22,844 bases of DNA from a virus. Within the stretch, counting starts at the first letter, position 1. Each line of letters starts with the position of its first letter. The position numbers were made by a program, and so were the translations under genes. Below, piece after piece: positions 823 through 7,369 of this stretch. The stretch covers positions 1-22,844 of IMG/VR virus record IMGVR_UViG_3300035086_000051, one strand, 5' to 3'. The notes beneath the pieces are model-generated. The model saw only the letters and a program-made list of their open reading frames with translations. It made no database searches and was not told where the DNA came from.

Positions 823-1605
823 ATGAAGAGAGTTTTGGCTACGACCGCCATCCTGGCGGCGCTTACCTGTCCTGGCGCGGCCAGCACCGTCACGCTAGGC
901 GGTGTGACTTGGGATACCACCAACTCGGGCAGCCTGAGCCTCGGAAACGTGGTGCCCGCCGGGAATCAGCCGCAGAACGCGCCGTGCGTCATCTGCGGTG
1001 CCAACCAGCCGCAGCAACCGGCGAACTTCGGCTACAACGACTACAGCAACAACGGAAGCGTGTCTTCGATCACCGCATTCTCCGATCAAGGCAACGGCGG
1101 CCGCAACACGCTTGCCGACAACACGTTCGCCACCGGCTACACCGTCGGCGCTGGCTCACCCTTCCTGCTCTTTCTGCTCGCCCACGGCGACACCAGCCTC
1201 GGCTTCAGCATCGGCGTTGACGTCAACGACACCAACCAGGCGCAGACGCTGAACTCGTTTTTCTTCCTCGACTTCACTACGCATACCGTGCTGGCCAGCT
1301 TTACGGGCGGCACCACAGGCAATGTGCCGTCACTCAACAATGGAACAGGCTTCCCGGACTACTCTATCACCGGAGCTCTCCTCAACCTCAACGATGTCCA
1401 TCTGGGCGACACGATTGGCTTCGTGGCGCTCATGTCCGGGTTGAACGACGGGCCGGACTCGTTCTTCATTGAGGCCGCACCGGCGGCAGTGGTGACCCCG
1501 TTGCCAGCAAGCTTGCCGTTCTTCGCCGCCGGCTTACTGGGCTTGGCCGGGCTGACGCGGTCGCTGCGCCGGCAGTGCCGAGGCGATGCCACGGCATCAG
1601 CATAG
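823..1605 (+). CDS. Secreted VPLPA-CTERM-like surface protein (cargo gene in head operon)
   Basis: A 260-aa exported protein. Residues 1-20 (MKRVLATTAILAALTCPGAA) form a Sec signal peptide. The body is rich in Gly, Asn, Thr and Ser and looks like a beta-sandwich domain. The C-terminus carries the tripartite sorting signal of VPLPA/PEP-CTERM proteins: TPLPAS at 225-230, a hydrophobic helix to about 244, then the basic RSLRR. Proteins of this class are processed by exosortases and placed on the cell surface or in exopolysaccharide; VPLPA variants are typical of Alphaproteobacteria. Two cysteines sit in a CVICG motif near residue 58. It does not look like a virion component, and sits as a moron-like insert between portal and head genes, followed by a hairpin at 1778-1812. 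Reading the C-terminus as a sorting signal is well supported; any function in infection is inference. Confidence 0.8.
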   Translation: MKRVLATTAILAALTCPGAASTVTLGGVTWDTTNSGSLSLGNVVPAGNQPQNAPCVICGANQPQQPANFGYNDYSNNGSVSSITAFSDQGNGGRNTLADNTFATGYTVGAGSPFLLFLLAHGDTSLGFSIGVDVNDTNQAQTLNSFFFLDFTTHTVLASFTGGTTGNVPSLNNGTGFPDYSITGALLNLNDVHLGDTIGFVALMSGLNDGPDSFFIEAAPAAVVTPLPASLPFFAAGLLGLAGLTRSLRRQCRGDATASA

Positions 1606-1838: not shown

Positions 1839-2210
1839 ATGACTTTGCAGGTTCTAAACGGCCCTTTCATACAAGCCGGCGAGTCGTTGTCTGACGCCGT
1901 CGACTGTAGCGCCGGCGAATTGGTGCGTCTCACCATGCCGGGTGCCTGGTCGGATGCGGCGCCGCTGACGTTTCAGATCAGCACGGACGGCGTGTTCTAC
2001 AACGATCTGTTCACGCTCGATGGTCATGAGCTCACGTTGCCGGTCGTGGTGCCGGGCGCGGCGGTGCTCGTCTCGCATGATGTCGGGCGCGCGATTGCGT
2101 TCATCAAGTTTCGCTCGGGCACGCGAGCTGCGCCGGTGCCGCAGCAGGAGCTACGCGAGTTCGCGGTGGCGATCGATGTGCCCGATGCCGCGGGAGCCGC
2201 CCGCCGGTGA
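1839..2210 (+). CDS. Small phage head-region protein, unknown function
   Basis: A 123-aa protein of about eleven predicted beta-strands with few charged stretches: MTLQVLNGPFIQAGESLSDA, then an RLTMP-type strand, FQISTDGVFYNDLF, VVVPGAAVLVSHDVGRAI and IKFRSGTRA. It has the look of a compact jelly-roll or beta-sandwich, as found in decoration or connector proteins, but I recognise no characterised family; I recall similar unnamed proteins in rhizobial prophages next to minor head genes. The ATG follows GAGG at 1828-1831. Its stop overlaps the GTG start of the minor head gene (GTGA), indicating translational coupling and a head-assembly context. Function is unassigned. Confidence 0.72.
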   Translation: MTLQVLNGPFIQAGESLSDAVDCSAGELVRLTMPGAWSDAAPLTFQISTDGVFYNDLFTLDGHELTLPVVVPGAAVLVSHDVGRAIAFIKFRSGTRAAPVPQQELREFAVAIDVPDAAGAARR

Positions 2211-3562
2211 GCGACCCAACCGGCACCGCGGGCCTCCGGCGATCATTCCTGGCCGAAGGCAATCGCCGACTGGCGCGCGTGCGCTCGCTCACACACACGA
2301 TGCTGGTGGAGCACGACCTGATGGCGGCGCGCGGCGACCCGCTGGCGCAGTTGCTGCCGCATCCCGGCAATCGGCTGGCGGCGTTCATGCAATGGTTCGA
2401 GCAGACGGTTAACGCTCAGTTGCTCGGTGGCCGCTGGTGGGAGCGTTTCCTCGAGCGTGCCTACGCTTCCGGATTTAAGGCGGGCAGTGCGCTGACACAC
2501 ACGCCTCCCGGTGCCGCGCCACTGCCGGCGGTGTTCCGCGAGCTCGCCGGTCGCGAGTTCGCGGGCATCGCGGCTGCGCTTGTGCAGCAGGTGACACGGC
2601 AGGCCGCCGGTGCCGCGCTCGGCCGGCGCAAGCCGCAGCCGATGTATCGGCGGGTTCTGCCGGTGCTGCGGAAGGTCGGTGACGCTCGCGTGCGGCTGGC
2701 GACCAACACCTTGACGGTGAAGCTGCATAACTCCGGCCGGCTGGCCCAATTCCGCGCCGCCGGCATCACGCGCGTCGGCATCACGCCGGAACGCCTGGAG
2801 CCGCGCAAGCCTTCGCGGTTCTTGAGGCGGGATCATTTGCGGCATGATCACCGGCTGCATGATCGCGAGACGCAAAAGGAACGAACAGAACGGGCGGCCA
2901 ACGAGTTGTTTGCGGCACAGCAACGCCAGCGGGAAGCCGAGCAAGCGGTGGCGCAAGCGGAGCTCGAAGCCGAACAAGCGCGCGTGGCGGCCGAGGTTGA
3001 GGCCCATATGGCTGGCGCCATGCTGGGACTGAGCCGGGCGCAGGCTCAAGTGGGATTGGCGGCGTCGCGTGCTCGAGCCGGCGAGGAAGTGGCGGCGGCG
3101 AAGGCCGCAACGGCGGCGAGAGAAAAAGAGGCGGCGGCGGCGTGGCAGAAAGTCCTTGCTGCCAGAAAAGAGGCGCGCGCGGCCGAGTATGCGGCCAAAG
3201 CGGCCGAGCAAGCCGTCGAGCAGGAGGCTGCACAGGCGGCCGCCGAAGAAGCTGCGGCAGCGGAGGCAGAGCAAGCAGCGGCAGCCGAGGCCGAGCAAGC
3301 CGCTTTAGCGGAGGTTGAGCAAGCCCTTGCGCCGGAGCCTGCGGAAGAAGAAGCGGCAGCGGAAGAAGTGAACGTGCAGACTGCAGGCGATGACCGCGTC
3401 TGTGACGAATGCGACGAGCTCGCCGCCGACGGGCCGTATTCACTCGACGAGGCGGACGACCTGATTCCCGCGCACCCAAATTGCCGTTGCGCGCTGGTGC
3501 CGGTGCTCGCTGATCCTGCGCAACTTTCATTTCTAGGAATTGGCGGGGCAGAGGAAGGCTGA
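2207..3562 (+). CDS. Minor head protein, Mu gpF-like, with large coiled-coil insertion
   Basis: A 451-aa protein starting at GTG 2207, coupled to the preceding stop. The Mu F-like (SPP1 gp7-type) signature is split in two: a first part at about residues 155-193 (ATNTLTVKLHNSGRLAQFRA) and a C-terminal part at about 389-433 with DDRVCDECDELA, YSLDEADDLIPAHPNCRC, containing the paired Cys-x2-Cys and His-Pro-Asn-Cys-Arg-Cys residues of the family. Between them, about residues 213-388, lies an Ala/Glu/Gln/Arg-rich segment without proline until its end, predicted to be one long coiled coil. Family members bind the portal and capsid interior and are packaged in a few copies. The inserted rod is unusual and may span a longer distance inside the head or act in ejection; that is inference. 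The antisense reading frames here are artefacts of the biased composition. Confidence 0.85.
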   Translation: MSDPTGTAGLRRSFLAEGNRRLARVRSLTHTMLVEHDLMAARGDPLAQLLPHPGNRLAAFMQWFEQTVNAQLLGGRWWERFLERAYASGFKAGSALTHTPPGAAPLPAVFRELAGREFAGIAAALVQQVTRQAAGAALGRRKPQPMYRRVLPVLRKVGDARVRLATNTLTVKLHNSGRLAQFRAAGITRVGITPERLEPRKPSRFLRRDHLRHDHRLHDRETQKERTERAANELFAAQQRQREAEQAVAQAELEAEQARVAAEVEAHMAGAMLGLSRAQAQVGLAASRARAGEEVAAAKAATAAREKEAAAAWQKVLAARKEARAAEYAAKAAEQAVEQEAAQAAAEEAAAAEAEQAAAAEAEQAALAEVEQALAPEPAEEEAAAEEVNVQTAGDDRVCDECDELAADGPYSLDEADDLIPAHPNCRCALVPVLADPAQLSFLGIGGAEEG

Positions 3563-6415: not shown

Positions 6416-7369
6416 ATGAGTTACCAATTAGGCGATGCTGCTCAGCAGGCGCTCAGCTTCGTGGTGCAGCAGGCTCAATATATCGAGCCTCAAGTTTATG
6501 AGGTGGCGTACCCGGAAATCCAATACCCGAACCTTGTGCCGATCGACTCCTCCGGTAACGAGTGGATGAAATCGATCGCGTTCTTGTCCCTCGACAAGGT
6601 CGGCCAGGCAAACTGGTTCAATCACCTCGCGGCAGACGTTCCGTTTGCAGATGTCATGCTCAACAAATTCGAGCAAGGCATCGAAATGGCCGCGATCGGC
6701 TACTACTGGACTCTCGAGGAGACGGGTCAGGAGGCGATGATTTCCGGACCTACCATCAACAGGGTGATGGAACGCGCCAAGGCCGCGCGTCGGGCCTCCG
6801 AAGAGATGATCGATCGCATCGCGTTCTTCGGCGATACGACCAAGGGTTGGACCGGCCTCACCAACGACCCGAACGTCACGATCACCGGCGCGCCGGCGGA
6901 TGGCACCGGCTCGTCGGCTTTGTGGTCCACCAAGACCGCCAACCAGATGGCCCGCGACATCAACCTGATCTTGTCCGGGGTTTATACCAACTCACTGACA
7001 ACGGAAATTGCGGACACGCTGTTGCTGCCGCCGGATCGGTTTACAGCGTTGGCACAATCGCTGGTCACCAATACGGCGGTGACCGGGCTCAATCTCGTGC
7101 AGCAGGGCAATGCCTACACTGCACTGAGCGGTAACCCACTCACCATCCGCACAGTGCGCGGACTGGAGACCGCGGGCGCCGGTGGCGTTGCGCGCGCGAT
7201 CGCCTACCGCCGCGATCCGCAGATCCTCAAACTGCATCTCCCGATGCCGTTCAACTTCCGCTCGCCGATGCAGGTGACGGCACTTCGGTTCGACGTTCCC
7301 GGCATCTTCCGTACCGGCGGCGTCGAGGTCCGACGGCCGAAGTCCATGCAATATCTAGACGGCATTTGA
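6416..7369 (+). CDS. Major capsid protein, DUF2184 family
   Basis: A 317-aa protein; the ATG follows ATGGAGACCAACAC. Its features match DUF2184 major capsid proteins (the BPP-1-like HK97-fold branch): an N-terminal helix with LSFVVQQAQYIEPQVYEVAY, IDSSGNEWMKSIAFLSLDKV, a long helix with MERAKAARRASEEMIDRIAF, FFGDTTKGWTGLTNDPNV, LLLPPDRFTALAQSL and the C-terminal PMPFNFRSPMQVTALRFDVP, ending in GGVEVRRPKSMQYLDGI. It forms the icosahedral shell. No N-terminal scaffold (delta) domain is present, which fits the separate scaffold proposed at 5324-5887. Expected stoichiometry of hundreds per virion agrees with its strong translation signals. Confidence 0.9.
   Translation: MSYQLGDAAQQALSFVVQQAQYIEPQVYEVAYPEIQYPNLVPIDSSGNEWMKSIAFLSLDKVGQANWFNHLAADVPFADVMLNKFEQGIEMAAIGYYWTLEETGQEAMISGPTINRVMERAKAARRASEEMIDRIAFFGDTTKGWTGLTNDPNVTITGAPADGTGSSALWSTKTANQMARDINLILSGVYTNSLTTEIADTLLLPPDRFTALAQSLVTNTAVTGLNLVQQGNAYTALSGNPLTIRTVRGLETAGAGGVARAIAYRRDPQILKLHLPMPFNFRSPMQVTALRFDVPGIFRTGGVEVRRPKSMQYLDGI

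Follow-up and report, generated by a model that had tools for sequence, protein, structure and literature searches.

In a 22,844-nucleotide stretch of viral DNA (IMG/VR record IMGVR_UViG_3300035086_000051, positions 1 to 22,844; hereafter the window), a gene between the portal and head genes encodes a protein with a predicted signal peptide and a C-terminus resembling a bacterial surface-sorting signal. PEP-CTERM systems, to which such signals belong, are tied to exopolysaccharide genes in bacteria (PMC1569441). Here, we ask what this gene is, how its product would reach the cell surface, and what it may do there.

Architecture of the gene

The gene (823–1605, + strand) is a single open frame of 260 residues (MKRVLATTAILAALTCPGAAST...AAVVTPLPASLPFFAAGLLGLAGLTRSLRRQCRGDATASA*), which starts 35 bp 3' of the portal gene. 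A GGAG ribosome binding site (810–813, +) lies 9 nt upstream of the ATG at 823, and purine-rich stretches of the Shine–Dalgarno kind are found upstream of most relatives' genes as well. Residues 1–20 (823–882, +) form a predicted Sec-type signal peptide with a basic n-region and a hydrophobic core, and cleavage is predicted after A20. The signal peptide, already noted in the preliminary description, was supported by the alignment of 20 relatives, which revealed a conserved A/GxA cleavage motif: A20 at position −1 is invariant and A18 at −3 is nearly so, with G18 in the window protein (P0001).

The mature body, or payload (883–1494, +; about 200 residues), was characterised using alignments, dN/dS, and an AlphaFold model. 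It is mainly beta and carries a Cys55/Cys58 pair (codons for C55-V-I-C58 at 985–996, +, from the alignment) and a conserved NDGPDSFF segment. Both cysteines are replaced in one relative (L077, AIIS), a joint loss that is compatible with a disulfide. The C-terminal elements named in the preliminary description are all visible in the translation, namely the TPLPAS sorting motif (residues 225–230; 1495–1512, +), the hydrophobic helix LPFFAAGLLGLAGL (residues 231–244; 1513–1554, +; helix 231–253 in the model), and the basic end RSLRR (residues 246–250; 1558–1572, +).

Two further features lie at the 3' end. A small basic frame of 48 residues (MPRHQHRKRRHEVHAYWRVIRNKDGSVKK...; 1586–1732) overlaps the gene's tail in another frame, and it was found again in L082, L213, and L222. 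A strong GC-rich hairpin (GGCCCACCGG...CCGGTGGGCC, approximately 1779–1812; −30.8 kcal/mol for 60 nt), which has no long T run, separates the cargo gene from the next gene (1839–2210, +). In L064, a hairpin followed by T runs is located downstream of its copy.

Profile scores of the sorting tail

The preliminary description regarded the tail as a CTERM sorting signal. In profile scans with the window protein alone, the tail reached no curated CTERM cut-off: the protein scored 13.9 bits (E 0.041) against VPLPA-CTERM TIGR03370, for which the cut-off is 25.35, and 12.9 bits against PEP-CTERM PF07589, for which it is 20.7. The TPLPAS tail aligns at positions 2–20 of TIGR03370, so the protein is similar to this class but, scoring under the cut-off, is not counted as a member. 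Since the window tail is sub-threshold, the case must rest on its relatives (hereafter the main family), several of which did pass. Three members exceeded the TIGR02595 PEP-CTERM cut-off of 16 (22.5, 20.0, and 20.6 bits), one exceeded that of PF07589 (23.8 vs. 20.7), and L181 exceeded that of PEPxxWA-CTERM (41.5 vs. 35); the cut-offs passed within the family include that of NF035944. Moreover, PF07589 was above its cut-off in 9 of 25 phage contigs, including G002, which shares the window's backbone, and the mapped matches in those contigs corresponded to the main-family gene or to tandem PEP-CTERM genes. The sorting-signal claim thus stands for the family, whereas the window protein itself remains under the curated cut-offs.

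A C-terminus with P-x-P, a hydrophobic stretch, and a basic end was present in 67 of the 4102 distinct open frames of at least 100 codons in the phage DNA analysed. The main family accounted for 43 of them; among the 24 others, 19 begin with a signal-peptide-like segment, and PEP-CTERM-like tails are visible in 18 of these 19. Judged from these frames, the combination of a signal peptide with the P-x-P/helix/basic architecture is not due to chance.

A second phage family with a signal peptide and PEP-CTERM was also observed (L115:9186–9935, P0002; L190–L199), with 15 IMG/VR loci. It passes TIGR02595, and the L191 protein passes the VPLPA-CTERM cut-off. Its genes are often arranged in tandem with further genes of the PEP-CTERM kind (L115, L192), and a similar tandem gene in L068 encodes a protein with weak similarity to the model of the flocculation protein PepA (40 bits, E 4e-10; cut-off 80). 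No relatives of this tandem family were found in cultured phages or plasmids.

Genome context

In the window, the portal gene (14–787, +, cut by the window edge; phrog_146, E 7e-51) is followed by the gene under study, the small gene at 1839–2210, the minor head or head morphogenesis gene (2207–3562, +; phrog_4728 and phrog_115), a head protease, and the major head protein (6416–7369, +; phrog_264, E 9e-81). The phrog matches on both sides therefore confirmed the placement between portal and head genes. In L215 and L216, the insert is absent, and the portal and the next gene are almost adjacent. L216 lies on contig G028, whose portal and TerL are 92% and 96% identical to those of the window, and the main family was absent from the whole 42.7-kb contig.

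The gene occupies other sites in other phages. In the close relative L085, it is found between TerL and the portal, and the small gene starts 12 bp after the portal, as revealed by locus comparison. In L106, it comes soon after a different terminase, and in the podovirus-like contig L113, it lies between the portal and the major capsid protein. The L113 portal shares 53% identity with its counterpart in Rhizobium phage RHph_TM27A, where three short genes and one of 1 kb, all annotated as hypothetical, occupy the corresponding interval. A baseplate wedge gene is present in L115, which also carries two tandem PEP-CTERM genes. Family members were also located between integrase and endolysin (L129), after a primase-like gene (L182), and after a DNA polymerase gene (L184). 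Integrase was above its cut-off in 8 of the 25 contigs, including G001, which encodes a protein identical to that of the window. In two loci (L313 and L314, on G031 and G030), a far more distant member (E ~1e-39) was observed at another genome position, with a portal 69% identical.

Because the gene is missing from a close relative, sits at different sites in close relatives, and is present in unrelated phages, these comparisons identify it as phage cargo rather than a structural gene, as the preliminary description had proposed. The members that adjoin integrase, endolysin, and replication genes indicate that the description "late cargo" fits the window but not the whole family. A virion or head-assembly protein would agree with a location flanked by portal and head genes, as seen in the window and in the podovirus-like contig. 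However, the protein has a signal peptide and a CTERM tail, and in other phages its gene adjoins integrase, primase, or DNA polymerase; this reading is very improbable, and a structural role in the virion was rejected since L215 and L216 have the same head genes without it.

Distribution of the family

An IMG/VR scan with the window protein found 193 places that encode relatives; when a distant member served as the query, 191 were found, partly in different places and samples. The body is encoded at about 190 IMG/VR places. Identity within the body ranges from 60 to 100% among the first 80 relatives, and approximately 50 alignment columns are invariant even when members at about 50% identity are included. 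Within clades, the dN/dS of the body is 0.05–0.2, a range indicating that the body is under purifying selection.

No relative of the main body was found by tblastn in the cultured phage collection, including RHph_TM27A, nor of the main family in plasmids with a PEP-type member as the query; a PDB sequence search gave no match. In GTDB genome contigs, two peptide-pattern scans across 84,980 species, which reach only fairly close relatives, also found none. Since no bacterial relative of the body emerged from the pattern scans, the family looks like a phage-lineage family rather than a borrowed host gene, and the earlier label "host-type" was abandoned in that sense. A bacterial gene misassembled into phage contigs might have been suspected because PEP-CTERM proteins are known as bacterial, but the scans found no bacterial relative. 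This scarcely credible explanation was rejected since the same junctions repeat in independent contigs (window, L002–L009, and L050), and other phage junctions occur elsewhere.

Among the cultured matches listed for the major head protein, most are Rhizobium phages (44–46% identity), together with Acinetobacter phage Silvergun (47%). The preponderance of Rhizobium phages suggests an alphaproteobacterial host. No exosortase was encoded in the 18 phage contigs searched. Hence, processing of the tail, if any, would be carried out by the host, consistent with the use of host machinery envisaged in the preliminary description.

Exchange of tails on one body

The body carries at least four kinds of tail, TPLPAS/VPLPA, VPEPGS, PEPATWAMM, and VP(G/A)PxxGAGxPG (hereafter GAG-type). 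In all of them, a hydrophobic stretch and R/K residues come after the motif. A tree calculated from 55 bodies, with the tails left out, implies at least 10 changes in the kind of tail, where the minimum is 4; PLPA requires five changes and PEPxxWA three.

These exchanges bear on an alternative explanation, in which the protein is exported by Sec, held by its helix in the inner membrane, and blocks DNA entry of other phages without an exosortase step. Many superinfection exclusion proteins are membrane-anchored, a C-terminal hydrophobic helix with a basic end could in principle suffice, and the window tail is below the CTERM model cut-offs. Nevertheless, the tails switch among profile-recognised signals (PEP, PEPxxWA, and PLPA) with P-x-P kept, and an anchor needs none of that. 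A plain membrane anchor is therefore unlikely.

The GAG-type tail, VP(G/A)PxxGAG(L/I)PG with a hydrophobic stretch and an R/K-rich end, was found in L071–L081, L130, L133, L136, L163, L180, L182, L183, and many of L251–L286. The members tested had no NCBIfam or Pfam match, and this tail alone, a short query, had no plasmid match. Because on this body it stands in for known sorting tails, we infer that it is a candidate new sorting signal. In addition, another secreted protein of 230 residues with a GAG-type tail was observed in L130 (3318–4010) and L136 (12963–13655), both of which carry the main family too; in L136, its gene is beside an endolysin-like gene.

Exchange of payloads between fixed ends

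L212–L214 have the window's backbone (portal 95% identical) and a gene at the same site. The signal peptide of this gene is nearly the same as that of the window gene and its 36-residue tail is identical, but its body is unrelated, with no significant similarity between the window and L213 bodies. DNA homology between the window and L213 spans positions 1–883 and resumes from 1495. The first boundary is one base beyond the codon of A20, the predicted cleavage residue, and the second is the first base of the TPLPAS tail. Together with the tail exchanges, this pattern indicates that tail and payload are separate modules, each exchangeable.

The second payload represents a family of 18 IMG/VR loci, and the distinct members read all have TPLP/VPLP tails. 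The proteins (L213:4819–5496; L315–L332) start with LDW(N/D)FQDH and have a conserved CG(S/A)GCN near the end. A weak N-terminal similarity to the exosortase-dependent protein XDP1 was noted for this payload (18 bits, E 0.002). Further XDP1 matches, where inspected, are due to the tail, and membership in XDP1 was rejected.

Retention of the tail while the payload is swapped, and location of the gene in the head operon of the window, would also agree with a decoy role, in which the protein saturates the host exosortase so that host surface proteins (phage receptors or biofilm proteins, for example) fail to be displayed. However, purifying selection on the body is strong within clades, and a decoy has no need of a conserved payload, which makes this explanation improbable.

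Proposed mechanism and role of the payload

Taken together, the gene is probably a phage surface-display cassette that uses the Sec pathway and an exosortase of the host to put its payload on the envelope or exopolysaccharide. The phage would make the precursor; in the window, the head operon is the apparent source, as the 35-bp spacing after the portal and the common strand imply. The signal peptide would route the precursor through host Sec, and the TPLPAS/helix/RSLRR tail would keep it in the inner membrane, where a host exosortase of the VPLPA/PEP-CTERM type may cut or transfer it. The mature payload of about 200 residues would then reach the outer surface or bind exopolysaccharide. Tails are presumably exchanged as phages meet hosts with different exosortases.

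The AlphaFold model of the body (pTM 0.70, pLDDT 68) is mainly beta, and fold searches with two AlphaFold models (pLDDT 68) gave no match at E ≤ 0.001. Matches to CBM35, CBM2, and lectin folds and to picornavirus capsid folds were non-significant and were set aside as generic beta-sandwich likeness.

A role in surface specificity would fit the exchange of payloads between fixed ends. Tentatively, the most likely role of the payload is to change or mask the envelope or exopolysaccharide of the infected cell or lysogen, such that fewer competing phages adsorb. The next-best role, possible though on the whole unlikely, employs the same delivery route: expressed in the lysogen or during infection, the payload would attach polysaccharide to the cell and so lead to aggregation or to a change in phage release and spread. 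Overexpression of the bacterial PEP-CTERM protein PepA converts soluble exopolysaccharide to bound polymer and restores flocculation (PMC9850573), and an effect on the matrix would also be in line with the weak similarity of the L068 tandem protein to the PepA model, the non-significant CBM35/CBM2 likeness, and the integrase in 8 of the 25 contigs. On the other hand, the window body has no PepA match, the fold matches are non-significant, and payload swapping suits a specificity function equally well.

Beyond this locus, we lean slightly towards the existence of a class of modular display cassettes in uncultured phages, with fixed delivery ends, exchangeable payloads, and a tag refitted to the host exosortase. 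Such cassettes would redecorate the infected cell, most likely against rival phages, and the GAG-type tail would be an undescribed signal among them. If this is true, phages make use of the exosortase pathway, the physiological function of which remains poorly understood, and have performed natural tail-swap and payload-swap experiments on which exosortase reads which tag. It would also constitute a previously unrecognised way of bringing about superinfection exclusion or matrix change in environmental bacteria. Furthermore, the tag class is a possible link from host-less phages to host groups.

Comparison with known systems

PEP-CTERM proteins, exosortases, and phage morons are already known. 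Phage-encoded, exosortase-tagged cargo was not found in the open-access literature searched, a scope that excludes most subscription journals. With the bacterial substrates of PEP-CTERM/exosortase (EpsH, Xrt) systems (Haft et al., 2006, PMC1569441), the phage family has in common the signal peptide, the P-x-P-like motif with helix and basic end, and the diversity of bodies. In contrast to those substrates, the family is phage-encoded, no exosortase is present in the 18 contigs, the body was not found in the bacterial genomes searched, and one body is combined with several tail classes. As for PepA (NF033554), the phage tandem proteins score up to 40 bits, under the 80-bit cut-off, and the window body has no match.

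Known moron and exclusion genes encode lipoproteins, small membrane proteins, and O-antigen enzymes. Genes of phage morons, lysogenic conversion, and superinfection exclusion are likewise non-structural, occupy variable sites, are absent from close relatives, and sometimes stand beside integrase and endolysin; the phage family differs from the known morons in that its cargo is exosortase-tagged. The "choice-of-anchor" domains of NCBIfam are bacterial surface domains in which one body bears alternative sorting tails. NCBIfam scans found no match between these models and the body. The phage family shares with them the combination of one body with alternative tails, but in the phage family the body is swapped as well.
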